A DNA stretch of 64,000 nt, taken from positions 395,071-459,070 of the forward strand of contig JAACJP010000035.1 in the NCBI GenBank assembly GCA_013368375.1, in the 5' to 3' direction. Within the stretch, counting starts at the first letter, position 1; every line of letters starts with the position of its first letter. The position numbers and the translations under genes were made by a program. The DNA is from Tricholomella constricta (lineage: Eukaryota; Basidiomycota; Agaricomycetes; Agaricales; Lyophyllaceae). Below the pieces are notes generated by a model. It was not told where the DNA came from and did not search any database. It saw only the letters and a program-made list of their open reading frames with translations. This document shows positions 20,676 to 61,509 of the stretch, piece by piece.

Positions 20676-23600
20676 TTACTCTGATTCCTCTCCGCTATCG
20701 TCTTCGTCGTCGCTCCTTGTCCTCTCCAATCTCTCCCACCAGTGTTCGACCTCCTCCTCCACTTCTGGTTCGTCTTCCATCGTTGGCTGGTTCGGTGCGT
20801 TACGGGGGTTGCCCGTTTTGGTGAACGCTCCGGATTTCTTCAAGAATTTTGCGAGTGCTTCGATACCTTTGGTCGTGCCGAGGAGCTCTTGCATGTCGAG
20901 CTCCGGGAAGTCTTCGGTCAGTATGTGTCGGTGTTCCTCGTACCTCGGGCATTCCGATATGACGTGTTGTCGCGTTTGTATGTTTGCGCCGCATGGGCAT
21001 TCTACCGGTTCAGTAGGGACGAATCTCGAGTAGTACTCACCTATGAAAGCGTGGCGTGTGCGGCATTGCGTGATCCTGCTGAAGACTTCGCGTTCCGTAG
21101 TTCTGACGTGTTCTCTCGGTTTCCAGGCAGGTGGGAATTGGTTTGCGATGCCGAAACCGCCTGATGGTGGAGTGCGTTTCCACGATTCTGTCCACCGTGT
21201 GAGTATCTCTTCCTTGGACTTACGCATGGCGTGTGTCAGTGTGACGAATTTTTCTTGCCACATTGTGGCTCCTGCCTTCGCTTCTTCGTCGGCTCTTTCG
21301 TTTCCTTTGACGTCCGTGTGTCCTGGGCACCATTCGATGTGTACCTTGTGTTCAGGGCTACGGTTTAGGAATTCTACAATTGTTTTGTTAAATGTTACCA
21401 TGTTAAACTGTCCCGGCGCCGATTTTGGTTCGAAGATCGACGTTACTGCTGCTGCATTGTCTGCGTAGATGTAGATGTTCTTGACCGTGGGGTGGTGGTG
21501 GGTGTATTTTGTTGCTTCTGTGGCTGCGACAACGAGGCCCGTTAGTTCCGCGTCGTATACTTCGGCTGTGTGTCCTAGTCCTCCTCGGCGTATGATGACC
21601 TCTCGTCCTCCTCGGAAGCCCACTATGCCCCAGCCTGTGTTCTTTTTCGTGCTGTTCGCTTCGTTTAGCATTGAGCCGTCCGAGTAAACCAGCAGGTTGG
21701 ATGGGTTAGTTCGGAGGATTCTGGTCCTGTCGTTGTGCTCTTTGGCGGCGTCTTCCTTCTTGACTTTCGGGTCGGTTCCTCTGATGGTTAATTGTGCGCC
21801 GAAGTCTCGGTGCGTCTTACGCCATGGGGGGGAGATGAATGGGATGATACTCTCACCTTCTGAGGGGCGATACGTTAGCGCCGCGATCTTCTCCAGTTGT
21901 GTTCGCTTGGGTGCCTTGCGGCTTCTCGTGGGTTTCTGTGATGGGAGCGGGGGTGGGGTGGTGGGGTCGAATCCGTTACGCCATTCGTTTGATAGACGTT
22001 GGATGATTGGGTTTGTGGTGTTCAGTTTGTGGAGACGATCTGCATATCTGGCGTTCGCCAGATCGAGTGTTAGGTTGATCGGAGGTATGGCTAGGTCTAT
22101 CTCGAGGGCTTTGATGGGGGTGGTCCTGAAGGCGCCTGCGATGTGTCGGAGCGCCGTGTTCTGTACCTTCTCGAGTATGGTGGAGTGTGTTGTCTTGCCC
22201 GTCCACCAGATCGGGCTGGCGTAGGTGAGTACTGGTGTGATGCACGCTTGGTATAGTGTTCGTAGTTCGAGCTGTGATAGGCCTTTCACTGTGTTGGCTA
22301 GCATGCGTGAGCCACGGACCGCGTTACCTGCGCGGTCGGCGAGTATCCTGACGTGTTGATTGAAGGTGAGGCGTCTGTCGAAGTACACGCCTAGTATTCG
22401 GATGGTGTCTCCCGCCGTTATCGTGACATCGGGTCCATCCGGGGTCGGTAGCCGGATGCTCGGGGAGTGGCCCTTGTCTCTGCGCCATGAGTGGTGCATG
22501 AGTTCGTTCTTCTCGGCGGCCGATGATAGTCCGTTGTTTTCTAGCCAGTCGTTGACGACAATGTAGTTGGATCGGAGTATCTTGACGTTGGTGTCCAGTG
22601 TGTCAGACGATACCCGTAACGTACCGTCGTCGATGTACATGTCTAGTGTGGTGTCTGTGGGGTTGTCAGGTATTCTGGGAGGGCGCGGTCCCCCTGGTCT
22701 CAGGGGGGGTGACTTGCGGCTTTCCATGAGTTCCTGTAGTTCAGCGGTGTATATTACGGAGAGTATTGGGGAGACTGGGGACCCTTGTGGTATACCGTTG
22801 GCGACTGGTTTCATGTCTCCTCTGCGTCCGTCCAGGCATATCGAGGCTTCCCGGTCGCTGAGGAACGATGCCGTCCATTTGACTAATGGTAGGGGGATGC
22901 CTTTTCGGCGTAGTTCCCGGAGGAGTCTGGCGTGGTTGACGTTGTCGAAATACCCTGAGATGTCAAAGGTTAGTACCGATGTCACCTTTTTGTGATTGTG
23001 CGCGGCTTGTATGTCTTCAATGTGTGTGAGTAGGGCGTCGTTTGTACTGCTGTTTGGGCGTCCTCCGAACTGACTGGGTGGGACCAGGTCAGCCTTACCT
23101 ACCATGTGGGCGAGTCTGCGCGCTACGATCCCTTCCAGTACCTTTCCTAGGCACTCGAGTAGTTGGATGAGGCGATATGCGCGTGGTTCAGAGTAGTCTG
23201 GCTTGTTGGGTTTCCGGAGTGCGACCGCGATTGCGCGTCGCCACGTCTTTGGGTGGTGGCCTGTCTGTACGCAGTGGTGCATGAGTGCGAAGATCACGTT
23301 TTCGTTGGCTTCCCAGGCCCATCGGACTGTGTCGAATGTCATCTGGCTCTCGCCGGGGGCCTTTTTGGTGCTGTGTCGGTATATTGCTTCCCTGACTTCG
23401 GTGTGTGTTAGTGGTACATGTTCAGCGTCATGTTGTTGGGGTAGTGTTAGGTCTGGCCTGTCGTTGTTGGCGAGCCGGGGGGGATAGTGTGTTGCGGAGC
23501 ACGTCGCATTTGTCTCCGTGTTGTATTGCCGGGGTTTCGTTCGGTCGTTTAATCGCCGGGGATGGGTAGTTACGCGCTCCTTTGGACCAATTGCGGAATC

Positions 23601-24795
23601 CCCATATTTCGTCCGGTTTGGCCTCTTCAAGTGTCTTGTTTATCCAGGTGCGTCGTTCGTGTTTGAAGAGTCGCTTGAAGTAGTTGTCAGTTTTCTTCAG
23701 TGAACTATGGATTACCTCGCAGTGTGTGCCCCATTGTGTTTTGTGGGCTTGTTGCTGTTGGCGAAGTCTCGTGCGTTCCGCGTTGGCATCGTTCAGGGCG
23801 TCCGTCCACCAGGGTTTGGCCTTCTTGGATGGTCGTTTCTCCTTTGTTGAAGTTGTTGTGGCGTCCTTCATGGCGTCGGTAAGGAGTTTTACGTCCTCAT
23901 CCAGTTGCTCCGGTGTCCTGGGATTGTCGAGGTTCTTTAACTCGAGCCATCTTGGTTCGTTCTTGGCGAGTTCGTTGTCGAACGCATCTTTCCAAGCCTT
24001 CGAGTCAGCGTCTTTGAAGTTGAATTTCGTACCTGTGATGTTTTCTATCTCGGCACTTCCGTGGTCGATGACCCATCTTAGTGCGTGGTGGTCGGATCCG
24101 CATGACGCCGAGTCATCTATTGTCCACTCCTTGGTAGCGTCGAGGTCTATTGCGGCTGGGTTGGCGAATGTGAGGTCGATCACTGTGGTGGCGCCTCGTG
24201 ATCTGTGTTCGAAGTAAGTGGGTGTACCTTTGTCGTTAAGGAGGGAGTATCCTTGTCCGCGTAGCCATTCGACGAGTTGTCTTGTTTTTGTCGATGGCGG
24301 TCTGTTCCCGATGCTCCAGTCCGGGTGATGTTGATTCCAGTCCCCGCTGATGATGACCGGGTCGTCTTCTGGTAGGCGTAGTGTTTGTAGTCTGACCGAA
24401 GCGTCGGGCCTGCGGTCGGTCGGGTTTTTGCTTCGTGGTTGGTTGTAGATGTTTACTATGGTCGTCGTGGGGTAGTTGGCCTGTTGGATGTCGAGCACCT
24501 GGATGTCGAGGTCCTGTGCTATGTCAGATCGCAGCGTGACTGAGAAGTCCGGTCGGGAGTTGACGTAGGCCATGACTCGTGGCCTATGTCCTCGGGGGAT
24601 GGTAGCGATCGGGAGTATAGGGGTCCAGACGTGGTGTGCGACCGGTCCGACTTGGTCGTTCCCGATTTTGTCCCACCACGGTTCCGTGACGAGGATTAGA
24701 TCGAATCTGTCTGTGTATGTATTTAGTAGTGTGTGGCAGACCGTGTTGCTTCGGTTAGTGTTTAGCTGTAGTATACGGATGGGTTGTGTCTTCAT
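20676..24795 (-). CDS. LINE ORF2: endonuclease, reverse transcriptase, RNase H (one frameshift)
   Basis: Starts at the ATG at 24795, overlapping the ORF1 stop as ATGA. The first frame (24795-23428) is an APE-type endonuclease: LQLNTNRSN, VTEPWWD, SGDWNQHHPDW, TVIDLTFAN and GSDHHALRW. The second frame (to 20676) is a reverse transcriptase with KAPGESQ, the QGSPVSP loop and the catalytic YIDDG. An RNase H follows (VYSDGS, AELTGL, YADNAA, HTDVKGNERADEEA; all four acids present). A terminal CCHC (CPCG...HVISEC) and an acidic tail complete it. The frames meet at a run of seven C (minus strand, about 23476-23482): removing one C joins LSP to RLANN. That looks like a homopolymer indel or sequencing error rather than a signal; the copy is otherwise intact. 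Confidence 0.92.
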
Positions 24796-26735
24796 GATGG
24801 GACATTACCGGCGTATGTGTCGTGCGATGCTATCGATCCTCTAGGTTGTATTTGATAGGTGTCCTGGGGGTCTGGTGGTCCTGCGTCGTTTGGTGTTTTC
24901 TTGGGGCGCGATTTCTTCAGGATGCCTTGGGCGGTCTTGATCCTTGCGGTTCCCCATTCCGTCGGGAGTTGTATGTCGTGATCTTCGGTGTCCATGTAGT
25001 CTTCGGTGTCCATGTCTTCCAGTTCCTCTCCTTGTGTGTCTTGAGTATGGACGGTGCGGCCGTTCGTTTCGCTGGCAGGTGTCCGTGGGTCGGTTGTCTG
25101 CGTTAGTGTTGTGTGCGGCGTTGTCGTGGCCGTTGTCGTTGGTGTGGCTGTCACCTTGGTTGTAGGTTTCTTCTTGCTGGGGGCCCTCGTTTTGCCTCCT
25201 CCGTTGGCCTGTTTCTTTGTTTCTTTGGATGTGCCCGCTGCGCGGGCGCGTTCTGCGCACTTGCGGTTAGTGGCCGGGTGGTCATCGCCGCAGTTGGTGC
25301 ACTTGAATTGTTGGCGGTTGGTGGTTGAGTCGTCTGTGGGCGGGTTCCTGTGGTCGCGTTCCTGGTGGGGGCCTGCGCAGATGCGACATTTGGTGTCGTT
25401 CCTGCAGCGTCCGGTGTGGTGTCCGTAGGCCCAGCAGTTGCTGCATTGCGTTACGGGTGGGCGGTCTGTGTGCAGTACCACCTCGCAAAAGCGTGCAAAG
25501 GCGGCTACCCGCTTGGTGGCGAGGAGGGCCTTGGCGTCGTCCTCCGACTTGAATTCAAGTACGACGGATGAGAACTCTTGCTCCCAAAGATCCACCTCGG
25601 CTTTCACCCATCTTGGAGGTCCTGTCGGGCTCACCTTGTCCATTACCGGGTTGTTCAGCTTGAGTTCCTCCGCGATCTCTTCGGGGGTGTTTATTCTTCC
25701 GCTGTCCCTTCCCGTCCATAATCCATTGATCCGGACTTTGAAGCGCCTGTCGTCGGTGACTAGTTCGATCGCGTCGGGTGATGTCCCGAGGGTAAGGAGG
25801 ATGTCGATGAATTTATGTGCATGGGTTTTGAGTTCCGCTCCTGTTTGGTCCTCGCGGGTCATGAGGATAAGGTTGGAGCGGTAGTTGTACCTGGCTGATG
25901 CGATGCGGATATGCTTCGAGTCCTCGTGTAGTGCGAGGCGGTCATTTATGGCTGTGACGGCTGTCCTCTCCGGCAGACGGTCCTGGGCTAGGGGACCGGC
26001 GCGTGAGACGACGACGAGGCGGGCGGGGTGGTGCGAGTCTAGTGGGGATCTGGGGCTGGGTAGTTTGGGTATGACGTTTGCGGGGTTTGGTTTGGATTGG
26101 GCTTTGGAAGGTTTGAGGATCGGTCCTGTGGCGACGACCGTCCTGGGTCCTTGGGGATCGCGGGGTGTACTCGCGCTGGACTTGCCGGTGCTGGGCTTCG
26201 GATTGCCATCCATTCTCTCGTTTAATGTGTGTACGGCCTTGGTGAGCTCTTCGATTGCTTTCGTGGTCAACACGTCGTTTCTTGATTCTAGTACGGAGTC
26301 AGCCACATTGCTGGGGGTTGGGGACACACCTGGCTCTTTGAGGACGTCCGGGAAGAACTTCGACACGATGGTCTTGGTCAGTTCCTTGGTCTCCGGTGCC
26401 CAGTTGTGGTGGTCCGAGAAGTGTGTAAGTTTGTCGGCTATGAAGTGCAGGAGTTCAATGATGACTTGTTCGGTGGGATGGTTGGTGGCGGGTGGTGCCT
26501 CTTCTTCCCCGGACGACGTGTCCATATCTGAGTGGTGCATGCTTATGGGGGAGATGCGAGGGCCGGGGCGTGCAATCTTGCGGGTGGGTGTTTGGGGGGT
26601 GGTGACGGCGTGTTCCTTGCGTTTTCCTGTGCTTCGTTGCGGTGTTGCGGTTAGGCGTGCTCGCTCAGCATAGCTTTCGCTGGGGGGTTTCTTGGGTCTG
26701 TGGAATTCGAATGTATTTACGCTGGGTGCTTGCAT
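24792..26735 (-). CDS. LINE ORF1: Gag-like nucleic-acid-binding protein
   Basis: 647 aa from the ATG at 26735 (an upstream GTG extends the frame but is not needed). The N-terminal third is Pro/Ser/Thr/Lys rich. The middle holds an RRM-like or Gag-like fold before a row of CCHC-type knuckles: CSNCWAYGHHTGRC, CRICAGPHQERDH and CTNCGDDHPATNRKC. The C-terminal part is basic, then acidic. ORF1 proteins of this kind coat LINE RNA. The stop overlaps the ORF2 start (ATGA), the arrangement used for stop-restart translation. Confidence 0.88.
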   Translation of the reverse strand: MQAPSVNTFEFHRPKKPPSESYAERARLTATPQRSTGKRKEHAVTTPQTPTRKIARPGPRISPISMHHSDMDTSSGEEEAPPATNHPTEQVIIELLHFIADKLTHFSDHHNWAPETKELTKTIVSKFFPDVLKEPGVSPTPSNVADSVLESRNDVLTTKAIEELTKAVHTLNERMDGNPKPSTGKSSASTPRDPQGPRTVVATGPILKPSKAQSKPNPANVIPKLPSPRSPLDSHHPARLVVVSRAGPLAQDRLPERTAVTAINDRLALHEDSKHIRIASARYNYRSNLILMTREDQTGAELKTHAHKFIDILLTLGTSPDAIELVTDDRRFKVRINGLWTGRDSGRINTPEEIAEELKLNNPVMDKVSPTGPPRWVKAEVDLWEQEFSSVVLEFKSEDDAKALLATKRVAAFARFCEVVLHTDRPPVTQCSNCWAYGHHTGRCRNDTKCRICAGPHQERDHRNPPTDDSTTNRQQFKCTNCGDDHPATNRKCAERARAAGTSKETKKQANGGGKTRAPSKKKPTTKVTATPTTTATTTPHTTLTQTTDPRTPASETNGRTVHTQDTQGEELEDMDTEDYMDTEDHDIQLPTEWGTARIKTAQGILKKSRPKKTPNDAGPPDPQDTYQIQPRGSIASHDTYAGNVPS

Positions 26736-26809
26736 TTTTGCGAGCGATCTGCCTCCTACGGTGAGCGTGGGAAAGTAGCTCACAGTGGTGGTAACGGATC
26801 AAGGAGCCT

Positions 26810-27066: not shown

Positions 27067-30000
27067 TTAAAATGCAACTTCATGCGCATGATGATCTGCA
27101 AATTTGTTAACGTAGAATGAATGAAAATGATCCAAGGCATTGGTGTGATCCAGACCATACAAAAGAAGGAGATGCCGGCCAGCAATGCCGAGGAGATGCG
27201 CACCGCGCATGATGGAATCCAAATGAATGACCTCAAGAACCCGACGGGTGCGGCCTCGCACTAGCCGAACATCAGGCTCCACCATCCACATCCCTGTATC
27301 TGGACAGGGGAGCTCATCTAATGGTGAGAACCAATTCACGAGCGCACAAGGGTACGTCGTGCCTTGATGGTTAAAAGAAAAAAAAAGAAAGACCCGCGCA
27401 ACATGCAGCCCTTTAAATCCTGGGTCGTCCGACTTCCCAATGAAGACACAGTCGTATCGCGGAGCCCCACCATACCACGACTTCATAGATCGAATCCGTT
27501 CATGCCGCATCCCTCCATCCCCGGAAAGATCACTTGGTGCGTAAAAGACTGCACGCGCCGAATTGAAAACCTTCACTGTTCCAATAATCACAGGAAGCTC
27601 GTCATGTGGAACGCCGGAGCCAGGAATAGCGGCGTCGGGATGGAGTTGATTATAAAGAAAGCGAGCCGTGAGCTCCGGAAGGTCGTGTCGTTTAAGATGG
27701 CCAGCGAGCGAATGGATGTTTGATGGCAGGTTGCGAACTGTAGGATGAGAAATATTTGAATAAGTCGCGCAGTAAATGATCATTAGACATTACGCACCAT
27801 GTGTCTTGGCCAAGGATACCTCTGACATCGACCGAGGTCCATCCAGTGCTCCCTCCTCCTGATTCTCACGGGGGATCTGCGCGGGTAGCAAAGTTGCACG
27901 CGACGACGACTGTGTGCCATTGAGTTGACGAAGGGCTGCGATAATGGGGGTTTCAGGGCCATCGAGCATGTGTCGGGCTTTGAAAAAGGTGCGCGCAGCA
28001 GCGAGCTTGTCAAGACGTTGATTTGTGATGAGCATTTGGCCAAGGGGTTTGTTTTTGTTAGAGCGGCGGTATGGGCGCTTTACCGCCTTTATATGTTTTG
28101 ACTCGGTGATTGAGGAACAGAGGCCGTTTGGAGCACCGAACTGCTTGATGAGGGAGGGGTAGTGGGAAAGGGCATGTTGACGTGGGAGTGAAAATCCTTC
28201 TGCTCGAACGCCGGTATTGCGAAATACCTCACGATAATGATGGAAGCGTGCCAAAGCAGCTTCGATCTCAGCGAGGGTGTCTTGGTCGATGGTGGAGCGG
28301 CGCACAAGGTAGCAAAAATCGATCAAGGCTGCAACGGCACGTGTCATCCACGCAGGTACATGCCCATGTATTGCAGCAAGGTAAACCTGGCAGCAGGTAA
28401 GGGGCGGAAGCATTTAATATATAGTGAAGAGCATACCTTCATCAGTCCCTTAGAATCGTTCCCTGTCCACTGCTTGAAGCCTCTGCCCTGCGAAAAACGT
28501 CGAAGACCAGGAAAAGGGGGAGCCGCGGATATTCTGAACAGATATTGAGGAATTGGTACATTAGACATTGTGAGAAAGACATACCGACGATCGATATCAG
28601 CCAGAATTTCTGCGGCGCGCCCCGGCGTGTCTTGGTGTACCAACTTGATGTAAGCCTCGATCCAATCGACGAGGTGGTCCTTGAAGGTGCCCTTGATGAT
28701 CTGGTGGAGAAGGTCGGGGGCAATGAGCTCGTGGATGTCGGCCCTTGGAAAGTAATCGGTAAACGGCTGGGAAGGGCAAGAAGGTTAATAAGGAAAATGA
28801 TGAAAGTTGGTACCGAACATACAATTAGATCTCCAACGACACCGTAATGGTCCCATAGATCCTTCAACGTAAATGTTTCGAGCAGTTTTGAAGTGTGTTG
28901 ATGTGATCGATACATGGCATCACCATCGAGGTTTTCGGGGCGCGCCGTACATCTGTAGCATAGGTTCAGTTTGAAGGATAGATGAAAGAAAGTTGAAGCA
29001 CACATTGCACACCAGTTCTGAACAATACATGCGAGAAGGGCCTGCTCAGGATAATCTGCGATGTATGGCCCCAGACCATAGATGACCCTCCGATAGTGTC
29101 CGTCGGCGCATTTGGTAACACGCGGAGTTGTCATGTGAGGGCGAAGAGAGCTTAGGATGTGTTCCAGTGATGCATGGAACAGCTGGCGACGAAACTTTCT
29201 GAATTCGGCCGAGTCCTTATGTTCCCGGGAGGCTGTTGTAAGGACGCAGGTCCAGACTGGTCACCTGTTGTTGGCATTGTTTGGCAACGCCTTCGGCGTT
29301 GCCTATATCTATTGTTTATATCTATTATTTTAAGTAGATCTTCGCAACTTCATGTATAACTAGCAGAAAAATGACATCTGGTCAAGCTCAGTTATAGTGT
29401 GAAGGCGAGGTCGTCCTTGTAGCACCGCTACATTTTTTTGAGCTATCCAGCTCTACTGCTATATACAGCTATATCCCGCTATATCCCGCTATCTGCTTCT
29501 TTTCTCATTCTGGCCACTCAAACCCCTTTTGGCCAACACCGACATCTTGATATGACATCGAGAACCACCCAGGACCATGCGACACGCGCATGGACACACG
29601 AGGCCGCGGACACGCGGCCACGTCACTCGTCGGAACCGCAGCTTGCGGCCCCGAGAGGCTTCTCGATGCTCGAAGCATCGAAATTGATGCCACGTCACAT
29701 GGCAGAACCGCCGGCGACGGCTTCTTCGAGCAAACTCGAGCCGTACCTATGGAACGGCACAGGCGAATCTTCGTCGCCTGTGCACGAAGATTGGATCGAG
29801 CTCGCCCTTTTACGGCGCGAGCTTCAGTTATTTTGGGCGGCTACGAGGATAACCGACGAAACTCATCGACGTAGGCTCGAAGCCTGTGCTGAACACAATG
29901 TATCTGAGTACTTTGGACGAATATACATTGATGTAGGACATACAGAGTACCTACAACGATACATGGATGCGCTACGCGCACGCTATTGCGACTGGTGCGG

Positions 30001-33000
30001 TCAAGGAACCGCACCGACTACAAGCGCTACACCTTCGATTTGGGAGGCCAAACTCGAAGCGTTTTGGGAGACGACGGATGTCCAGAGCAAATACCGGCGT
30101 CGGAGGCTGCTAGAGGCCACCGAGAAGATGTATCAGAAGTACGGTGCCACACGTATGCATCGTACGGCGGTCGGCGACTCATACACCGACAAAACTATAA
30201 CGACACTTCGTGATGTCGTGGAAATCTATAGGAAGCGGCGTCCGAAGGACGCAAAACGAGGGGCATCGCAATCTTGCGATGCAAGTACGACAGCGTTGCA
30301 GGCGCAATCAATGACGAAACCAGCGGGACCATCAGGTGATGGTCCTAAAAATGCACACTCGGACGGCTTGAGTGCTGCCCCCTTCCGATCCATAGTGAAG
30401 CGCTCCGAAAGACGCGAGGGCAATGGCCTCGCATCGGTGAACGTCACATATCGTGGCGGACACGATGACTGCGACTGGCGAGCACCGTCTCTGACGCATG
30501 ATTCAAGTATGCGAAGGAGGTCACGGCCCAGGCATGAGGCCCTCAATCAGGGCAACATCGAGAGTATCGTCGAGCATCGGAGGATGCTCAAGGAGACACG
30601 AACCGAGGAGAACGCCGTATCCAAACGACGTTCTGGTGGAGGGGAGAGGTACCAGAGCAGTAGCCACCACCCCACAAACGAGACGATGAAGGAAACGTCG
30701 CAGAGCGACGTCTTACGACCCATGATGTCCAGCAAAGGCGCAACAGCCGCTGGCAGGAAAAGCGCCAGCGACACAATGTCGGAGGTGTCGAAGATACGAC
30801 CTCCGAAGGCCGAGGTGCACCAGAAGGGCGCAGGAAACGAGCACCGACAGAGTATGGTCTGGATAGACCATACTATAGTTGATGGCGCGCGGCAAGGCCG
30901 TGCACATCGAATCGAATTGCACTTAGAAGGTGCACAGGAGGACAGCAAGCGTCCTCCTACCAAGCACATGGACAGGCCTGCACCAGCGCGTTCAATAGCC
31001 CGCAAGTGTTCATCGTCTGGGTATTTCATACCCAGACCCTCTAGTGGCACTGTTGCTGTCACACCGGTGTCAGAGAGCGCCAGCGTGCGCCCTCAACCAG
31101 AACGAGCATCGGAGCACCCAAGAAGAGGTGCCGTCAGTGATGGCGGAAAAACGATTGTGCCCCAGATGATTGTGAGGCACCAGAACGGACCAAGGGGCTT
31201 ACCTGGACAGCAGAGTGATGGGCATAGCCCAGCATCGAACTCGAGCGCAGCACGTCTAGTTAAAGATGTGCAAGGCAGGCATCCGACGTTAATGGATGTG
31301 CGGACAGACGTCCGCAAGGGAGGAGATGGGTGTGGCAAACACCCATCGAGAATGCTTGAACGCCACGGGACGACAAACGCAAAGGTGCAGATGCCGGCAT
31401 ACCCAGAGGCGGACTTCCACATTGCGTGGTGGATAGCACGACGCATCGACGACGGAAGCGACTGGAACGAGACGTTCCGGGAGCTAATGCACGATCGAAC
31501 GGAAGACGATGTGCGCCGGGTTTGGAGGTGGGTGATGTACCACCTCCGGCATCACAGAGAGGAACTCCATGCGAACACGGGGTTAATGGGCGTCAAGTCT
31601 GTTCCGGAGACGGCGTCAAGCGCTGTATCTGATGATGGATCTAGTGACCGACTCAGTGAGGTGGGAAGGTCAAGATCGAATTCGCAAAATGGGCAGGAGC
31701 GAACACGCACCCCTGATCATGTCCTAGACTGGTTGGAGGGTAACTCGAGCACCTACTCACGCAGTATTAGTGCGAGTAGGGACAACTACAACATGGTGGT
31801 ACCGACACCATCGGTAGTTCGGAACGAAATGGCCACCGAACGTTTAGCGTGTATGCGCCAAATTGTTCATCGCACATATGGCGATGAACTGGAAGGGGAA
31901 GGCGACGAGAATGGTGAGCGGTCCGAAGGCCATTCGGAATGCTCAGAAGCATGGCATGTCCGAACATATGAATGTGAGGACGCATGCCATGAATACCAGT
32001 ACTTCGATGAAGACGGGAAGGAAATTCACGTCTACGAAGTGGAGAGCGATGGGGAAACCAGCGCTCTCGAGGTGGAATATGATAGCCACCGTGAACGTGG
32101 TAGCTATCAAGAGGAGGAGGAGAGTGGCGCTGAGCACAGCGGCTCGGAAGACGCTCGTTTTAACGACGAGCAAGAGAGTGGCGCTGCACATAGCGGGCCA
32201 GAAGATGCTCGTTCAAACGACAAGCAAAGCGACGAAAGCGCTCTTTATGATGATAACGAGTGCACCGATTCCGATTGAGCGTGTTGGGCTCAGTGTGCCC
32301 AACAGTTCCTATCCAGGTCTTTGAGATGCGATATGAGACGCATCAGTCCGGCAGCCGTATCGGTTATGTGTCGACGTTGATAACGTTGAGGTGGCAGCCT
32401 ACGCGACTTTAACCACAGTCGCAGCGATGTCTATCGCTGAAACCCTTGTGGCGTATACGTCGGCGCGATAAATAGCGCCTCAGTCTTCTGCGGTAGTTCA
32501 ACCAGCCCTGGTCTGGCAGTCGCAATAGCTGTCGACGAGGAGTCGAAGACGGAGCCAAAAAATCGATGAAGCCATAAATTACTGGCTGACGACTCGATTG
32601 GCGACTATTCTCAACTTAGGCGCGAAAGTCATCGTTGGGCATTATGTGTCCAACCCTAGCCAGTACGTCCGCGGAACATGGATGCCAATCTCTCAGAGAC
32701 TGGAGGAACAAGTCGCGTCGACAGAATCGACACTACGTTAGGGCCATGACCTAACATTATCATTATTCCATATCGTCGGGGTACCAATACCCAGACGCGA
32801 CAACTGTGGCGCATAAAATATGCGCAATACATTTGACTATTATTGCGCGTACTGTACGCGCAATATATTCGACATATTCATCCCTCGACATCCGCCCGGG
32901 TGTAAAGATTGCTGAGTGCAATCTTAAAGGGGGGTATGTAAGGACGCAGGTCCAGACTGGTCACCTGTTGTTGGCATTGTTTGGCAACGCCTTCGGCGTT

Positions 33001-34375
33001 GCCTATATCTATTGTTTATATCTATTATTTTAAGTAGATCTTCGCAACTTCATGTATAACTAGCAGAAAAATGACATCTGGTCAAGCTCAGTTATAGTGT
33101 GAAGGCGAGGTCGTCCTTGTAGCACCGCTACAGCTGTCCAATGATATACGTAAGACGACAGCCTTGTGATACAAAAGAACCGACTTTTTAGGATGGCCAG
33201 AAACCCTATCAATGCCACAGCATTCCGATGCGCCCGTCGCAAAGAGTTGTGAACACTACCAAGAGACCCGTAGAGTGGATAATACTCGTTATGCCTGGTA
33301 GCAACAGAAACTGTTGTCTTGTCGCTGCCGAGAACAATGGGAGCAAACATTGCTCCGTGGGTTGACGAGTCAACTGCAATCTTGTCCTAGACATCTCGTC
33401 ATTACCAAAGAGAATAGTGTCATATAATGTTGACTTACCGCCTGGTCCCATGCCCAGTTTCCCGTCATCAAATCCCGAAAACGTCGTTTTCCCTTCTTAA
33501 ATATACGCTTGGGAGTGTAATCAATCCCATCCTTGAAGTCTGGGTTGCCGATTTGGTTTTCCAGGACTTCCAGAGGGTCGCGGAACCACACCTCGAACTT
33601 TTCTCGCATCCAAGTTGGTATAGGCCCTGACTCTGGAACTGCGCCCTGATACGTGATGCTGAAGGATTGCCAAGCAACGTCACCCTGCTTGATAGAGTCG
33701 ATCAGGCTATACATATGTGTATGGCTGTCAAAGGGTGGGGACTCGTCAGGATAAAGTGCAGAAATAATGTTCACGAGCCGATCGACATTATTAGCCGACA
33801 TCTCATCTTCAGCGAAGAGGAACTCCGCGAGTTTGAATCTTGCACAGTCCGGAAATGGACCATAATCGGTGGGATCGTGCGGTTCAGCTGGTGGTGGTGG
33901 TGCGTTGTTGTTGAGGTCAAATCCATCCTTGTCACATGGCGTGGCTGGACAATTGTGGTGAGCGTCAGTATCTTTATGCATACATCTCATGTAGATACAT
34001 ACCATCCAAGAGCGGATGAGTTTCAATGTCTTCGTGGTTAAGATTAATTGTGATCCGGGGTTGTTGACCTTGTGGTGTTTGCAGTGGGGATCCAGATCGA
34101 GTGCGGCGTGGCGAACGTCGGGATGAAAAAGTCGGTGAAGGTAGTGGCCAGGGCGGCTCTGGATCTGTTTCGAGGAGTACATCTGTATCGGGAGTGTCGA
34201 ATTCAGGAGAATGGTCTACAGGAGCTGATGGGAATTGGAAACGAAGGTCTTGGGGCACTATATGCACCGCTTCATAATGTAGTGTGAGACCTCGAGCAGA
34301 CTTCAGCATCCTGCGACATCCTGCAAAGTTGCAGGCATAGCGAGCTGGAGTAAATGCTTTGTAGGAGCGACGCAT
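27067..34375 (-). CDS. Plavaka-type transposase, LTR element in intron 3
   Basis: Exons are 34003-34375, 33439-33944, 33185-33386, 29004-29232, 28823-28952, 28585-28766, 28437-28533, 27798-28386 and 27067-27737. All GT-AG junctions keep phase and give 992 aa with no stop. A C2H2-like finger (CNFAGC...LHYEAVH, 14-36) opens the protein. Family landmarks follow in order: PCDKDG, NPDFKDGIDYTP, WAWDQ, GAMFAPIVLGSDKTT, NEYYPLYG, RRVIYGLGPYIADYPEQ, CTARPENLDG, PFTDYFPRADIHELIAPDLL, HQIIKGTFKDHLVDWIE, PPFPGLRRFSQGRGFKQWTG, LCSSITESKHIKAVK, the YAPSDLSG region, VIHLDSIMRGAHLL and ADHHAHE. These mark the agaricomycete Plavaka (CACTA-related) family. Intron 3 contains a 3.9 kb LTR element in antisense to it, placed at the acceptor; a duplicated acceptor AG remains at 29233, so the reading frame is formally preserved. 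Confidence 0.93.
29237..29432 (+). repeat. 5' LTR of the hairpin-rich element
   Basis: 196 bp, TGTAAGG...GCTACA, identical to 32937-33132 by eye. Contains the 9 bp stem hairpin GGCAACGCC-TTC-GGCGTTGCC at 29283-29303. Confidence 0.93.
29552..32278 (+). CDS. Unknown 908 aa protein of the hairpin-rich LTR element
   Basis: The start is the first in-frame ATG (29552, MTSRTTQDH); the frame is open further upstream only by way of a TTG. No known domain is recognised. A helical module of about 65 residues occurs twice (about 84-146 and 162-230), sharing L..FW..T, RRR.LEA.E and a Tyr-rich second helix. The centre (240-620) is basic, Ser/Arg/Gly rich and probably disordered. A Trp-rich helix region (about 635-690: FHIAWWIARRIDDGSDW, VRRVWRWVMYHLRHH) resembles a small helical bundle. 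The C-terminus is strongly acidic and contains an 18-residue tandem repeat (ESGAEHSGSEDARFNDEQ and ESGAAHSGPEDARSNDKQ). A Gag-like role is possible but unproven. The codon choice makes hairpins in the RNA throughout. Confidence 0.75.
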   Translation: MTSRTTQDHATRAWTHEAADTRPRHSSEPQLAAPRGFSMLEASKLMPRHMAEPPATASSSKLEPYLWNGTGESSSPVHEDWIELALLRRELQLFWAATRITDETHRRRLEACAEHNVSEYFGRIYIDVGHTEYLQRYMDALRARYCDWCGQGTAPTTSATPSIWEAKLEAFWETTDVQSKYRRRRLLEATEKMYQKYGATRMHRTAVGDSYTDKTITTLRDVVEIYRKRRPKDAKRGASQSCDASTTALQAQSMTKPAGPSGDGPKNAHSDGLSAAPFRSIVKRSERREGNGLASVNVTYRGGHDDCDWRAPSLTHDSSMRRRSRPRHEALNQGNIESIVEHRRMLKETRTEENAVSKRRSGGGERYQSSSHHPTNETMKETSQSDVLRPMMSSKGATAAGRKSASDTMSEVSKIRPPKAEVHQKGAGNEHRQSMVWIDHTIVDGARQGRAHRIELHLEGAQEDSKRPPTKHMDRPAPARSIARKCSSSGYFIPRPSSGTVAVTPVSESASVRPQPERASEHPRRGAVSDGGKTIVPQMIVRHQNGPRGLPGQQSDGHSPASNSSAARLVKDVQGRHPTLMDVRTDVRKGGDGCGKHPSRMLERHGTTNAKVQMPAYPEADFHIAWWIARRIDDGSDWNETFRELMHDRTEDDVRRVWRWVMYHLRHHREELHANTGLMGVKSVPETASSAVSDDGSSDRLSEVGRSRSNSQNGQERTRTPDHVLDWLEGNSSTYSRSISASRDNYNMVVPTPSVVRNEMATERLACMRQIVHRTYGDELEGEGDENGERSEGHSECSEAWHVRTYECEDACHEYQYFDEDGKEIHVYEVESDGETSALEVEYDSHRERGSYQEEEESGAEHSGSEDARFNDEQESGAAHSGPEDARSNDKQSDESALYDDNECTDSD
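32279..32936 (+). other. Untranslated 3' region of the hairpin-rich element
   Basis: No open frame. It is dense in hairpins, for example TGTTGGGC/GCCCAACA (32282-32304), GCGCATA/TATGCGC (32809-32825), TATTGCGCGTA/TACGCGCAATA (32841-32865) and AAGATTGC/GCAATCTT (32905-32925). It ends in the purine tract AAAGGGGGGTA (32926-32936) next to the 3' LTR. Confidence 0.75.
32937..33132 (+). repeat. 3' LTR of the hairpin-rich element
   Basis: 196 bp, identical to the 5' LTR, followed by target duplication GCTGT. Confidence 0.93.
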
Positions 34376-48514: not shown

Positions 48515-51500
48515 TCAGTTCTGCTCTTCTTCCGACTCCGAGTCGTCGCTTACGACTTCGGGTCGGTCTTCATTGTCGGTGATCGTCGTCGCCTCTAGTT
48601 CTCGGAGTCGTTTGGTGTCTATGTCCAGCGCGTTATCGGGTAGGAGAATATTATTTCGCGCGAAGTAGGGGGTGAGTCGGAACGCTGCTACAGGCCGGTG
48701 TAAGACGGTGCCATCCAATTCGCAGAGGATGTAGGCGCCTCCACGGTTGCGTGAGATCACAACGAGCGGACCTAGGTATCTAGATCGCATTTTGCGGTTG
48801 AGCGACTTCTCGATTTTCGTGTTGCGCATGAGGATGAGGTCTCCGCGTTTAAAGTTATAGTCGCGCAAGGTTCTGGCGTGTTGAAGCTCAAAGCGAATCG
48901 CCGCTTGTCGTCGCGCCGCGTATACGTCTGAATGCAGTCGCTCTAGGTCGGTCGTTCGTTTTTGTAGGGCGATCGCGCGACGTGTCAAGAGGTCGGTGGA
49001 GGACAGTATTGAGTCGGGTGGCGGTTGGAGGTACGTGGCTTCGACGATATCGAGTGGCAGGAGGGGCTGCGTGCCTGTCGCAGCGTAGTAGGGGGAACAT
49101 CCCATTCGTTTGCGGATTGTGACGCGTTCCGCCCAGAAAACGGAGTAGGCGGCTTGCGACCATTTATTTTCGATTCCGTCGGCGGCTTTGAAAAGAGATT
49201 GCCGGACGTCGAAGTGGGATCGCTCGACTAGCCCGTTGGCTCTAGAGTTGTAACCTGAGATCCGAATGTTGTGTATGTGGTATTTCTTTGTGAGGTGTTC
49301 GGCGGCTTTGATGAAGGCTGGGCCGTTGTCGGTTACGATTTCGCGCAGTCCGCCCCACCGGCAGATGATGTCTTCGTACATCCAATCGCCGAGGGTGCGA
49401 CTGTTTTCCTTTCGGAGCGCGCGCCATTCAGGAAAGTGAATCAAGGAGCAACGACCTTGGACAATGTATTTGAAACCATTCGACGGCGGTAGGTGCATAG
49501 TGTCGATGTACATTTTTGCAAACAGTGGCGCGGGTGTCGCAACGACCGGGGGGATCAGGACCTTGGTCGTTTGCTGGATCTGGCATATGTGACATGTCTG
49601 TACGAACCACACGACGTCGGCCCGAACATTAGGCCACCAGAAGCGTTCGAGCAAGGTTGCGCGTGTCGCGTAGAAGCGCTTATGTCCGAGGTTGTCGTGG
49701 ACGGATCGCAGAATCTCTAATCGTGCATTGGGGCGGGCGACTAGTTTATGTGCGCCTTGGCTATCTCTTCTCCAGAGTCGTGTTCCGTCTAGGAAGAACC
49801 CGGTGGCGTATCGAATGAAGGTGGCGTACTGATCGTCGGACATGCCTTCTGGCCGTTCGAGGTTGGTCAACCATTGTCTAACCGCATCTATGCGTTGGTC
49901 TTGGGCTTTAGCGGCGTCGGTCCTGGGTACGTCGTCGTATGACATGTCGGTCGAATTCGCATTTGGGTCGGTTATTCCTGTATCGTCGTCGGTACGGATT
50001 CTGGGTTGTCGTGGGGAATCGGTTGCGAGTTCGTGAGTCGTTGAGTCTGGTGGTACCGCGTCCGTGTATACTGCCCCCATCTCCTCCTTACTTGAGACCT
50101 GAGCCATAGCGAAGATCTGGCATATGTGTAATGGCGACGGCGGCTGTGGCAGCGGTTGAATAATGTGCATGAGTCCTTGCATTCGGTCGACCCAATCTTC
50201 GAAGTCGGCTTCTTCTGCGTCGTAGTTGTCGGCTGGATCGTCGGGTTGTCGTGGGCGCCGGGACAAACCGTCGGGTCCATGGAACGTGCCTTTAACATGG
50301 ACAAGTTCGAAGTGGAACATGAGGACAGATACGATCCACCTGTTTATGGAAGCTGACGGCTGGATGTCGGGGTTGGAGAGCATTCCTTTAATGTAGCGCG
50401 CGTCGACTTCGACGACCAAGTTGCGGACGCCTATAACGTACAGGCGTAAAGCGCCAAGCGCCCGAAATAGGCCGTAAAATTCGAGTTTTGGTTGAGAGAA
50501 CCGTGATTCGCGGTCGTTCAGTGTAATGGAACCGAACCGATTGTATCTGCGTCGTTTCCGATCGACGGGGTCGGCTTGACAGAGGTAGAATCCGACTGCT
50601 ATGTGTGAAGTGTCGACGGCCAGGATGACGGGGTCGTCCGAGGCGTAGTCGATGGGTACGAGGGGTTTCGCTTCTGCGATCGCCTCGACGATGTCACGCT
50701 GTGCTGCGATCTGGTCGGGGCCGAATTCGAAGACTGCGTCCTTGCGAGTTAGTTTTACGAGGTGGTGTGCGCGATGAGCAAAGTTTTTGACGAATATCCT
50801 TAGTACTCCGACTGTTCCTAAAAACGCGCGTAACTCTGATAGGGTGGCGCACGACTTCCAATTACGCAGTAAAGCGAGTCGGTCCACGTCGGGTATGCGA
50901 CCCTTGGGCGTGCAGACGTGTCCGAGGACTTTAAATTGTGGTGCGCATAAAATCAGCTTCTTACCGGAGAAGGTGCCGCCGCAGTACTTCATGCGCTGGA
51001 GGATTCGGTTGACGTTGTTGAAGAACTCCCAGATCGCGAACCGCACATCGGCATTGTCGGGGTGTGTTTTCGGCAATCCTGTGTCCGGGTCGGGGTACCA
51101 AGTTGCTGGTCCCTTTATAGCAGCGTCGTCGATATAAGGTAGTGTATAGTCCGGGATCTCCGGTTGTAGGATGTGAGTGACGTCGTCGTGGAAGATTGGG
51201 ACGGAGTTGGTCCAGCCCATAGGTAAGGTGACTAGGCGTAACGCGCCGAAAGGTGTTTGGAAAGTGGTAAGGTCGCGCGACGATGGTGCGATTAGCCGTT
51301 CGTCGTAGCCGACAAACAGGTCTAACATTGCGCCACAAATGCGACCGGCGAATTGTTCGCGACATGGTCTGGTATCGGAGTGACCCCCGAGTGTCGGATA
51401 GTTACTCGGTTGAGCGGTTCGAGGCTGTGGACGAGGCGGAACTTGCCATTTTTCTTTAGAGTGCAAAACCAACGCGATCGGTAGCTGGAGTTGGACGGTT

Positions 51501-52257
51501 CGTAAACGCCAGCGGCGAGTTTGGTTTTGATAATGTCGCAAACTTCATCGTAGATGCCAGGCGGTATGGGGATATTTCGTTCGATCCAGGGTGTGTGTGC
51601 GACGACCGGGATATCGATAGGGGGAAAGAAATCCGATCGAAAACTACTGCGTTCGGAAGTCGTCCCATGCGAAAGCGAGATTCTGCTTACACATGAGGTC
51701 GTGCATAATTGCTCGTTCGGAGGGCGTTAAGAAGTCTGGGTGTTCACGGTCTAAGTCGTCTTTTCGCTCTAGAGTGTAGCGGCCGGTGGGTTGGAAAGGT
51801 GGCGGGTTGGGGAGCAGAGTCGGCATGTTGGCGAGAGGGTCACCCAATATTTTGCGCTCGATGCGGAAGTGGTCGGGACAACTTGCTATGATCGATCGCA
51901 CTTTTTGCGCTACTGGTTTGTACTTCTTTTTGGTTTGTACGCCTTTGATTTTCACCACGAAGGCGTCGGTGGCGGCGTTGGTCAGGGATTGGGTGTGGCG
52001 TCCACTATGGCGCTCGTTGTTCGGTAAAATAGTGCAGAGGGTCGTTCGTTTTTGAGGGTTAGAGTTGGTATTAACGGATTGGTCGGCGATTGCTGGTGCG
52101 GTTAGTTCGGATGCCGCGACGTAGAGTGAGGCTAGTTGCGCGTCATAGGTGGCGTCGCTATTAAATTCGGTCGGTAGTTCGCAGAAAGAAAGGACAGTCG
52201 GGGTATAGCTTAGTGGGTCGTACTCGAGGAGGAGTGCAAGATCGCCGTGATCTCGAC
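48515..52257 (-). pseudogene. Element A pol: RT, RNase H, integrase (frameshifted)
   Basis: Reverse transcriptase has WFCTLKKNGKFRLVHSLEPL and the catalytic LPYIDDAAIKG; RNase H has ILAVDTSHIAVG. The integrase has the zinc motif HDNLGHKRF...CHICQ and the catalytic acids in MYIDTMHL, IVTDNGPAFI and NGLVERSHFD. A C-terminal GDLILMRNTKIEKSLNRKM leads into an acidic tail. The main frame is open from 51541 to 48515. Upstream the coding potential jumps frame at about 51360, about 51650 and about 52260 (protease/RT junction). The first two look like single-base indels; the last could be natural. Between RNase H and integrase the codons for SSKEEMG contain the central copy of the purine tract (50080-50095). 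Confidence 0.82.
50080..50095 (-). promoter_or_regulatory. Possible central polypurine tract of element A
   Basis: TCAAGTAAGGAGGAGA, identical to the tract before the 3' LTR, lies inside pol and is followed by TG as at the LTR. The match extends to 18 bases. Confidence 0.45.
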
Positions 52258-53132: not shown

Positions 53133-56100
53133 CTAATCCCCCTCTTCTTCTGCTGTTGTAACTGGGTCCAACTCGCCCCGAACTTGATGTTGTGTCTCTG
53201 CCGCCGCCTCTTCTGCTCGGTCCTCCATTGCTTTCTGATCGGTTGCCAACCTCGTCCCTGGTCTTGGCCAAAACCTCCTGAGTCGCCTCGCGCTGAAGTT
53301 CCCCGCGACCCGCTTGCCTTCGAGGGTTTCGATAGTGTACGAGTTGACGTTGCGTTCGACGACGCGGTGTGGGACGGACCACTTCGGTAACAACTTGCGC
53401 TCGGTCTTGAACGTATAATCGAGATCGCTTCGATAGATTTGTACGAGGTCGCCGTTTTTGAATACCACTTCCTGTTTTGACTCTGCAAGAACCCGTCTGT
53501 CAAAAGCCCCCTTGCGTTTCACTGCGTGTTGTACTGCCGCTGCGTAGCCGTCCAGTCGCTGCTGCCCCGCGTACGCCATTTGCGTTGCGACGGCGTCGGC
53601 TGTGAGCTCGGTTGTGCTGTCTTCAACCGCCGTTCTTGGCGTGTTAACCACTAGTCCGAGAAGTAGCTCCTTCGGGCTAAAGTCCAGGGCCGGTAGGAGC
53701 CGCCAGTTGAGTATTCTGATCGCCTCGTCTAGATGGTTCGGCCAGGACCTTGGCAGGTTCGCCTCTGTCATCTTCTCATACTCGTCCTCCCCTAGCCCCG
53801 GCGAGCAAAGCCGTTTTAGTATGTGCAACAGCAATTTGTTGGCCCCTTCCACCAGGCCGTTGACCCACGGCGAGTACGCCGCCACGACCTGTGTCTTCGT
53901 CCCCCACTTCTCACAGAAGGCCCGGACTTCTGCATTGTCGAAATGCTTTCCCCCGTCCACCATAAACGTCTCTGACGGTGCGTATGCCTGAAAAATGCCT
54001 GATAACGCTCCCACCGTTGTTTTCGCGCTTCCCGCCGTCTTATATTTGTATCCCCATGCGTGCTGTGAATAGGTGTCCAAGTACAGGCCCACCGTGTGGT
54101 AACCGCCGACTCCAACCGGCAGGGAGAGGTAATCGCCGACCAGCAACTCGAACGGGTGCCTTCGGGTGATGGGGTTCAGGAGTGCATGCAGGTGGGTCCC
54201 CCCGAAGTTTTTGCAATGGCCGCAGTCTCTGATGCCTTGTATGATGGAAGCGTCCAGCCCTGGACTCCATATGGTGTCGGTAAGTCGCTTTTTGATGGCG
54301 TCCCGTTGCCAATGCCCTCCGTTTTGATGCTCCACCCTCGCCAACTCAATCGCTTCCTCTCTAGTAACACACTCGACTCTCGCCCTCGCTCTTGCTCGAT
54401 GTCCGCCCCCCACACGCCATAGCCTCCCATTCTCGATGAGGTACTCGGACGCTCGATGCCGCGCCCTTCGTTTGTCGCGCTCGTTCCTCCCTTGGTCCAG
54501 CTCCAGCAAGGCCTCGATGACCTCGAGGAAGACCGGCTCCTTTGCAAACCTCCGCCTCAACGCTTCCCCGTCGCCTAGGATCGCCATCTGGAAGATGTCG
54601 TGCGTAAGTCCCGTTACTGCCTCCCAATCCTCGCACACCGTCCATTCACTGCCATCTCCTTCCTCCTTTGAGGCCCCCTCCGATGCTCTGCTCAGCCCAT
54701 CCGCGACCACATTGATCCTTCCTGGCACGTGGCGAACGTCCACTATTTGGTGCGCTAGTATTCCGTCCCTCCACCTTGCGTGTGTCGCGCTCAATTTATC
54801 ATTCATCAGCACGTCGCGAAGGGCCTGACAGTCCGTCTCGATAATGACAGGGAACCCCCACACCGTGTCCGAGAACTTATCGAGTCCAAACTTCAAGGCC
54901 GCGAATTCTAATAGGAAGGGCTTGTATTTTTCCTCCGCCGACGACGTTCGTTTCGACGCGAAGCCTATGGGGTGCAGTTTTGTTACAGAGCTTCCGCTGG
55001 TTGTCGTCGTTGTGAACGGTTGTGCCAGTACCGCACCGAAGGCATCTATGCAACCATCCGTTGTCAGGATGAAGGGTGTTCCGTCCCACTTCGGTGCTCG
55101 TAGGACTGGCTCTGATGTGAGTATCTTTTTCAGGGCCATGAAGCTCGCGGCGTGAGTTGACGTCCATTTGTCCGCCAGCTTGAAGTTCCCCATGGCCCGC
55201 CTGTAGACCGACTTGGACGCTCCTCCCGGTATTACCACCTCTCTCAACAGGTTCCTCAACGGTGCCTCCACCTTTGCGTACCCGTGCACTAGGTCCCTGA
55301 ACCAACTCGTTAGGCCTAGGAATGCCGCCAAATTCTGGGCGTCCTGCGGTGGCTTCCAATTCACGATTGCAGTGAGCTTTGCCATGTCTGGCTGAACTCC
55401 GTCAGGGCCCACCGATGCGCCCGCGAAGACTCCCGTGGTAGCGAATAATACTGTCTTGGGCGCCGAAATGGAGAGCCCTTTCTCCCGACATCTTCCGAAT
55501 ATTGTTTCCAGCTTCGTCATCATATCCCTGAATTCATCCGCCGCCGTGCCTCCATCATCCACAAATAGCTCGAGTATACCTTGAACCAACAGGTCGTGTA
55601 GACTGCGGGCTGTCATCTGCGCGAACGTTGACGGCGCACCCGTGAGCCCAAAAGGCATTTTCCGATACCAAAAATACCCGCGTCCCTCCACATAAAATGC
55701 TGTGTACGGTCTGGAGGCTTCTGCGACCTCTACTGCGTAGAAGCCTGATGCAAAATCGAACAGCGAGACCCATCGTTTCCCGCTAAGCTTCTGCTGCTTG
55801 GCCCTTATGTCGCCTTGGGGCATTGGTGCGATTTTTGTTATCTTGTTGATCTCCGCGAAGTTTTGACATATTCGCCACTTGGGCTCAGGCTGGTCTTCGT
55901 CGTCTGCAGGCTGCGGTTTAGGTCTTTCGGGCATGGGAAAATGTGCTTCCAACCCGTTCGCGATGCATTGGTCGTTGACTCGATGCTGTAGTTCCTCCAG
56001 CGTGAGGCCCGCACCTTGGTGGGCCTTCTGCGCGAGCGTCGTGGGTGAGACGCATTTCACGTCACCCGGTTCGCACTGCTCTATTACCCCCGCTTCTAAC

Positions 56101-61023: not shown

Positions 61024-61509
61024 GATAGATGGTATTGGTTTCGGGATAGGGGACGGGGAGGGGGAATACGACGGTGAAGAAGAATCTGAGATTTCTGGGG
61101 TCGCGGGCGATAGATAGGGGAGTCTAAATTCAACTCCTTGATCGGTGGTAGGAGGTTCCGACGCAAAGGGGTCGAAAGCTAGGTTGGGTTGCGCGGTTGG
61201 TTCGGGGAGCGGTGTTTGATCGGTCGGGGTAGGCGACGGTAGTGTCGACGAAGGGCTATAGAAGAGCGGGCTGAGGTTGTTATGGATCGCGCGGTGTGGG
61301 GTTACTGAGCGGAAGAACGGGGAGAGCGATTCTGAGTCGGTGTCGACTTGTCCGAGAGCAGCGCGAATTTCGGCACGGAGGGTTCGGGCTTTAGCTTCTT
61401 GTCGGGTTGCGGGCGGAATGGTCGACGAGTCGTAGGTTTTTATGAACAAGAGGAATGAGGTTGCGTGTTCGGCGGTGGCTTTTAAAATCCCTCGCGGTGG
61501 GCTCCAGAA
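61024..61509 (-). other. 5' leader of element A
   Basis: Leader between the 5' LTR and the Gag ATG, Pro/Ser coding but without a start; holds the primer site at 61488-61506. Confidence 0.5.
61488..61506 (-). promoter_or_regulatory. Primer binding site of element A
   Basis: Minus strand TGGAGCCCACCGCGAGGGA, three bases from the 5' LTR. The complement ends in CCA after a plausible tRNA acceptor and T-stem; the tRNA species is not identified. Confidence 0.6.

Follow-up and report, generated by a model that had tools for sequence, protein, structure and literature searches.

An LTR retrotransposon in the window

The stretch of DNA analysed here (the window) comprises 64,000 nt of contig JAACJP010000035.1 from the agaric mushroom Tricholomella constricta (Lyophyllaceae), whose genome of 44 Mb in 118 contigs was also searched. 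Within it, a small long terminal repeat (LTR) element of 3,896 nt spans 29237-33132, and short perfect hairpins saturate it from end to end. Its 196-nt LTRs (TGT...ACA; 29237-29432 and 32937-33132, plus strand) are 100% identical, and the sequence reads GCTGT as a target-site duplication, to which no strand applies, on the left (29232-29236) and on the right (33133-33137). Also on the plus strand are a 119-nt leader (29433-29551), a 908-codon frame (29552-32278, with its ATG at 29552 and its stop at 32276-32278), a 658-nt untranslated tail (32279-32936) that is confined to copies of this element (23 matches), and a polypurine tract, AAAGGGGGG (32926-32934), two bases 5' of the 3' LTR. Identical direct LTRs, a target duplication and a polypurine tract before the 3' LTR place the element among the LTR retrotransposons. 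A Pfam search of the 908-codon frame gave no match, and the small element itself thus lacks the gag-pol expected of a Ty3/gypsy element; it is non-autonomous. When 7,992 candidates were scored in a database search with the 908-residue protein, none reached E 0.001, and an AlphaFold model of an N-terminal piece had a mean predicted local distance difference test score (pLDDT) of 53 and was not used.

The hairpins lie on the plus strand in the LTRs, the frame and the tail. Within the frame, stems of 7 bp occur at 29575-29593, 29602-29619, 30572-30589, 30695-30711 and 31299-31316, stems of 8 bp at 29663-29681, 29994-30015 and 30936-30958, stems of 9 bp at 31325-31347 and 31865-31889, and a stem of 10 bp at 30851-30874. 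The untranslated tail has stems of 8 bp at 32282-32304 and of 7 bp at 32422-32439 and 32809-32825. Nine further hairpins are described below together with their conservation. An initial annotation of this DNA had named 17 hairpins, and all 17 were found where it placed them, although three have stems one pair longer than it gave (8 bp at 29663-29681, 10 bp at 31015-31037 and 9 bp at 31325-31347). Its spacing of 30-60 nt proved too short: the mean is about 87 nt, based on 45 non-overlapping hairpins with loops of up to 15 nt.

Hairpin density relative to shuffled and neighbouring sequence

Hairpins were counted as perfect stems of at least 6, 7 or 8 bp with loops of 2-8 nt, and counts are given for the three thresholds in that order. 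The whole small element has 37/23/16 hairpins, compared to 5.7/1.5/0.40 in 200 dinucleotide shuffles (largest 15/6/3). The 908-codon gene has 25/16/11, compared to 5.4/1.6/0.64 in 300 synonymous-codon shuffles that keep both protein and codons (largest 14/6/5), and the untranslated tail has 8/5/3, compared to 0.9/0.2/0.1. The excess lies in loops of about 2-15 nt and is slight or absent at 16-120 nt. Direct repeats of similar geometry are less elevated (13/5/2, compared to 6.2/1.5/0.3), and the stems show no strong preference for a codon register.

The rest of the window is different. Twelve other open frames have counts close to those of their synonymous shuffles, from which the one that departs most has 3 hairpins versus 0.67 (stem of at least 7 bp, frame 20676-23630), and 53 blocks of equal length outside the small element have a mean of 1.8 and a maximum of 5 such hairpins, versus 23 within it. 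No hairpin excess is present in the window's two frames of Ty3/gypsy pol (48515-51541 and 53133-57881), in three pol-bearing stretches elsewhere in the genome (L025, L023 and L027, the last being the weakest match to the pol query at 22% identity), or in a gag-like frame of the window (59968-61563). Because the five Ty3/gypsy stretches (the two window frames, L025, L023 and L027) are at the level of shuffled sequence, the hairpin trait goes with the element lineage and is not a general feature of the host.

A larger Ty3/gypsy relative with the same property

The N-terminal region of the 908-codon frame resembles that of the Gag of a larger element. The protein search of the genome also matched long frames at many places, most of them of about 1,000-1,100 codons, with 32-41% identity over part of the N-terminal region. 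At one such locus, L060, lies an 11-kb element with a 220-nt LTR at both ends. Its gag frame of 1,054 codons has a CCHC knuckle above the cut-off and capsid and protease matches below it, and the first 568 codons of its 1,299-codon pol frame, taken from L060+L063, resemble by eye reverse transcriptase and RNase H. A tblastn search links this pol to other Ty3-type pol, and two further pol clades, about 64% and 55% identical, are present among the genome matches. Gag domains, reverse transcriptase and RNase H together identify the larger relative as a Ty3/gypsy element. The LTRs of the two elements agree over the first 12 nt, in a hairpin block and at the end, and the starts of their leaders are alike.

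The larger relative, along the sequence read, shows the same kind of hairpin excess. L060 has 44/26/16, compared to 6.8/1.6/0.43 in shuffles; its gag has 32/22/12, compared to 4.7/1.2/0.4 in synonymous shuffles; and the part of pol that was read has 14/8/5, compared to 2.4/0.9/0.2. Two other loci, L062 and L059, have 36/26/16 (compared to 5.2/1.5/0.3) and 28/12/7 (compared to 6.4/1.3/0.4). Both elements therefore carry short perfect hairpins at six to seven times the chance level along the sequence read. The initial annotation missed both the non-autonomous nature of the small element and the existence of a larger Ty3/gypsy relative with the same saturation.

A search with the larger relative's Gag returned 9 proteins among 7,993 scored, 8 from T. 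constricta and 1 distant protein from a metagenome. The latter (P0009) is a Gag-like protein of 1,249 residues on a 7.8-kb metagenome contig, with 39% identity over 18% of the relative's Gag. By eye, two related repeats are apparent in the N-terminal region of the 908-codon frame (29849-30361; FWAATRITDETHRRRLEA and FWETTDVQSKYRRRRLLEA), the second of which matches the larger relative's Gag.

The leader of the small element opens TTTTTTTGAGCTA and its counterpart in the larger relative opens TTTTTTTAAGCTA. At the leader start, the part that was examined for a tRNA primer site, TTTTTTTGAGCTA has no TGG-type start; given this, self-priming of the small element is possible. Tf1 is a self-priming retrotransposon. 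AGCTCA within the LTR is able to pair with TGAGCT just downstream of it (29386-29445). The larger relative has AGCTTA and TAAGCT at this site, a paired change, and the predicted fold contains the LTR-leader pairing in three of five sequences.

Predicted RNA folding

The mean folding z score in 120-nt windows is -2.5 for the copy in the window, -3.4 for copy C29 and -2.4 for L060+L063, and about 0 in four controls. In 350-nt fragments the folding energy exceeds that of shuffled sequence by 21.2%, 24.7% and 27.2% in three sequences and by -1.0 to 0.9% in four controls, and the excess is present in every fragment of three sequences (21/21, 21/21 and 30/30). Each element, along the sequence read, thus has the genome-wide folding excess over shuffled controls that defines genome-scale ordered RNA structure (GORS). 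For comparison, PMC7642675 reports an excess of 15% in SARS-CoV-2 and of 7-9% in hepatitis C virus, and the top value among the viruses it names is 23.4%, all computed with slightly different shuffling and step from those used here.

Hairpin clusters in inserts of L022 and L023 were set aside as other repeats that reuse one hairpin. The 4.5-kb insert in another copy at L023:1166-5661 consists of two arrays of opposite orientation, each made of tandem units of about 88 nt, in many of which one CCGCGGA/TCCGCGG hairpin recurs, and differs in kind from the hairpins of the lineage. L022:5125-5494 and L061:3048-3417 each have five hairpins with the identical arm TCACTGT/ACAGTGA and varying loops, likewise outside the lineage's pattern.

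Copies of the small element and conservation of hairpin sites

An LTR search of the genome gave at least 42 matches, and the protein search indicated at least about 20 copies of the small element, with 10 full-length matches open and without stops. Exact 5-bp target duplications flank 12 of 14 copies inspected. Fifteen whole copies, 82-99.8% identical over aligned positions, were aligned; the alignment was made without C22, C11:197k and C11:989k, which are split by large inserts, and without copies near C29:570k and C3:1117k. Gap columns were excluded from all counts, and tests between clades used 12 of the 15 copies in four clades (C9, C3b and C15b being left out).

Every aligned copy is hairpin-rich, with 25-47 hairpins (stem of at least 6 bp) per copy, and yet individual hairpins are only partly retained, 279 of 470 site-by-copy cases being fully paired. 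The initial annotation had proposed that relatives without hairpins at the same sites would count as refutation; density is upheld throughout, whereas identity of sites is upheld only in part. Among the nine hairpins not yet described, the 9-bp LTR hairpin at 29283-29303 is fully paired in all 13 other copies that have the site, and the 6-bp LTR-end hairpin at 29418-29432 in 13/14; each shows one paired G-C to A-T change in the larger relative, that of the former in its LTR, and both are carried again by the 3' LTR (32983-33003 and 33118-33132). Full pairing is also found in 12/14 other copies at 29757-29783 (10 bp), in 13/14 at 31524-31547 (8 bp) and in 13/14 at 32905-32925 (8 bp). The 9-bp hairpin at 30263-30282 is fully paired in only 2/13, and the 11 bp at 32841-32865 are complete in only 1/14. 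At 30326-30345 (9 bp) the outer pair is G-C in the window copy and A-T in clades B1 and B2, and at 31015-31037 (10 bp) paired double changes separate clades at two column pairs.

Constraint on stems

In six tests between clades, the stems always being taken from a third clade, fixed differences amount to 0.051-0.064 per site in stems, 0.076-0.101 elsewhere and 0.068-0.130 in loops; the rate in stems is 0.5-0.7 of that in the remaining sequence. Private changes, those seen in a single copy, are not rarer in stems (64/989 versus 110/2,450). In all five tests that set fixed against private changes, which share data, stems have the lower ratio (odds ratio 0.32-0.54, p 0.001-0.04). This is read as stems having been constrained while the lineage spread and left to decay freely after insertion.

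Copies were compared for compensatory changes, as suggested in the initial annotation. Paired double changes number 30 among 2,101 comparisons, compared to 6.6 after shuffling of the partners (at most 14 in 2,000 shuffles). Counted by distinct column pairs they number 13 of 467, compared to 6.3 (largest shuffle 14), and because the clades are related this second figure is the safer one. Between the window copy and C29, changed pairs comprise 18 with a single change and 5 with two, and lineage-specific gains and losses of hairpins appear by eye to be mostly single substitutions.

Coding constraint is weak in the small element, with a ratio of nonsynonymous to synonymous divergence (dN/dS) of 0.44-0.58 in five between-clade comparisons and 0.27 within one clade, and purifying selection is stronger on the larger relative's gag (0.13-0.24). 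At four-fold sites of that gag, comparison of L060 with L059 found fewer changes in stems than outside them whether stems were taken from L059 (4/39 versus 83/218, p=0.0004), L060 (9/50 versus 80/211, p=0.008) or L062 (12/54 versus 75/204, p=0.05). With stems from L060, comparison of L062 with L059 gave p=0.05, and three comparisons of L060 with L062 gave p=0.13, 0.04 and 1. Synonymous sites in the stems of the larger relative's gag are conserved in most comparisons.

As a separate observation, the LTRs, leader and tail of the small element (29237-29551 and 32279-33132) evolve about four times more slowly between clades than the gene; outside stems, fixed differences between clades A and B1 are 0.030 in the LTRs, leader and tail and 0.11-0.15 by codon position in the gene. 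These regions behave as if they held dense cis signals or were homogenised by recombination.

Orientation of the hairpins and differences between strands

The ends of the hairpins show an orientation. The outer pair of stems is more often G..C than C..G, at 20:4, 17:2, 17:7, 12:5 and 10:1 in five sequences. Relative to shuffled hairpins, A is over-represented as the base that directly follows the 3' arm in the sense strand of C29 plus L060+L063 (39/88, p=0.008) but not in the antisense strand (p=0.39), with counts recomputed from rounded fractions here and in the test by sequence. By sequence, the excess of A has p=0.0016 in the window copy, 0.033 in L060+L063, 0.07 in C29, 0.32 in L062 and 0.47 in L059. 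A 3' dangling purine on an outer pair of the G..C type stabilises RNA helices. In addition, predicted folding is stronger for the sense than for the antisense strand in 15/15 related sequences.

Interpretation

Folding excess, slowly changing stems, paired double changes, conserved gag synonymous sites and preferences at hairpin ends support the initial annotation's idea of a genome selected as a structured RNA. The explanation favoured here, with a probability of roughly one half, is that selection in this lineage has favoured folding of the RNA genome and that the folded RNA likely serves packaging by the lineage's own Gag. The RNA of both elements would fold into hairpins in the cell, the larger relative would supply enzymes to the small element, and the lineage's Gag would package or condense the folded RNA through many weak, additive hairpin sites. 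Gag binding, and not another use of the folded RNA, would then be what selection sees, and folding would help both elements to be packaged and copied. Packaging or condensation by Gag is preferred because the trait tracks the element lineage, because it is common to a small element that has little of the relative's internal sequence, because no shared motif was found in C29 and L060+L063, and because single hairpins come and go at a steady density, as fits weak additive sites.

Several results weigh against this explanation. The antisense folding excess is nearly as strong as the sense excess, and the gap between strands is significant on its own in only 2 of the 15 sequences. Plain selection on the sense RNA would favour G-T mismatches, and yet these are not kept above A-C (72 and 85 fixed cases, and 4 and 6 one-mismatch stems, respectively). 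Only a minority of the changed pairs are paired double changes, and in the more distant L060-L059 comparison these number 3, compared to 4.6 expected at the background rate; compensation is thus not the main mode of change. Four-fold sites in gag show no constraint when L060 and L062 are compared with stems from L059 (the p=1 above), and the small element shows no clear four-fold constraint in stems in six comparisons (p 0.12-0.71), stems changing more in three. Finally, a motif search in C29 and L060+L063 found no common loop or stem motif: no word in their loops and stems passes correction (lowest corrected p 0.115), and no 7-mer is common to the stem arms (stem of at least 7 bp) of the small element and the larger relative. 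A broader version of the argument, which is rather doubtful at present, is that structure instead of sequence would grant mobility. Hairpins would cover the small element, which has little internal sequence in common with the larger Ty3/gypsy family, to have it packaged by the Gag of that family, and the packaging code would be structural, dispersed over the whole RNA and common to the family and a sequence-unrelated parasite.

It is conceivable, if somewhat unlikely, that the folded RNA is instead a shield that hides the transcript from RNA silencing by the host or from its other sensors of RNA, unrelated to packaging, as with the genome-wide folding of persistent RNA viruses. The stems, at 6-12 bp, are shorter than what Dicer ordinarily processes, which counts in favour of a shield, as do the pervasive and sequence-unspecific folding, the partial replaceability of hairpins, the lack of a motif, and a folding excess above the published viral values. 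A shield explains the same facts as packaging except that the five other Ty3/gypsy stretches of this host have no hairpin excess despite facing the same defences.

Origin by a mutational process is improbable. The initial annotation had raised a process that writes local inverted copies; in such a process, reverse transcriptase would snap back and copy one arm into the other, creating and repairing perfect inverted repeats in each round. Perfect Watson-Crick stems, short loops, the lack of a G-U preference and the likeness of both strands are in its favour. However, it predicts mostly paired double changes, and single changes outnumber them 18 to 5; it predicts normal divergence, and stems change less than the rest. 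Also against it, hairpin gains and losses appear by eye to involve mostly single substitutions, and the orientation of outer pairs is not expected from blind copying. Arms also do not change together at the background rate expected of template switching at quasi-palindromes, and self-copying by reverse transcriptase is accordingly disfavoured. There is similarly little reason to expect that pairing is used at the level of DNA, in single-stranded cDNA or cruciforms, and not in RNA. Stems that are perfect and alike on both strands, and G-T mismatches that are not favoured over A-C, are consistent with DNA-level use, whereas the sense-only enrichment of A next to the 3' arm, and sense z scores below antisense z scores in every related sequence, argue against it. 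Lastly, although G+C content is higher in stems than elsewhere, chance, base composition or protein sequence can practically be dismissed as the source of the hairpins, since none of the dinucleotide, synonymous-codon and codon-order shuffles comes near the observed counts and the excess continues from the gene through the untranslated tail.

Other features of the window

A frame matching Plavaka transposases (33370-34182) adjoins the small element. On the minus strand at 20676-26783, frames that by eye resemble a non-LTR retrotransposon have an AT skew of about -0.34 to -0.43.

Comparison with known systems

The type of element is already known. The small element has the LTRs, 5-bp target duplications and polypurine tract of Ty3/gypsy LTR retrotransposons, and the larger relative their CCHC Gag, protease-like region and reverse transcriptase. 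Both differ from them in the short perfect hairpins that saturate LTR, genes and tail, a saturation not seen in the other five Ty3/gypsy stretches from this genome. Comparable non-autonomous derivatives of Ty3/gypsy elements are those of the large retrotransposon derivative (LARD) and terminal-repeat retrotransposon in miniature (TRIM) kind; unlike these, the small element retains its own frame of 908 codons, on which purifying selection is weak. Among the titles and abstract openings listed in a literature search, which displayed part of the matches and covered few subscription papers or preprints, no LTR retrotransposon appeared to be described as hairpin-saturated; one listed paper that mentions both LTR retrotransposons and GORS concerns a group II intron enzyme. 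On this basis the hairpin saturation of an LTR retrotransposon lineage appears to be the new part.

Some RNA viruses have dispersed packaging signals, in which many weak stem-loops over the genome have a common loop motif. The present elements likewise have many weak stem-loops spread across them, but no common motif was found in C29 and L060+L063.

The RNA genomes of yeast Ty3 and Ty1, probed by selective 2'-hydroxyl acylation analysed by primer extension (SHAPE), are also LTR retrotransposon RNAs with structured regions (PMC11381356). Their structure is reported to be a mosaic, with stable structure in at most 30% of the RNA, whereas the excess reported here is present in every 350-nt fragment of three sequences; the yeast structures are experimental and the present folding is predicted.

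There is also a likeness to the GORS viruses of PMC7642675, which have many consecutive local stem-loops across the genome and a large excess of folding energy over shuffles. By the same source, hairpin positions are poorly conserved in those viruses and here they are partly conserved; the carrier here is a retrotransposon, the stems are perfect, and the excess of 21-27% is at or above the highest value in that comparison (23.4%). In contrast to the viral cases, a single genome here contains both a partner element, whose internal sequence is for the most part different, and Ty3/gypsy families that are poor in hairpins. The role of genome-wide RNA folding, whether in packaging, in shielding or in neither, is therefore testable between families inside one cell.

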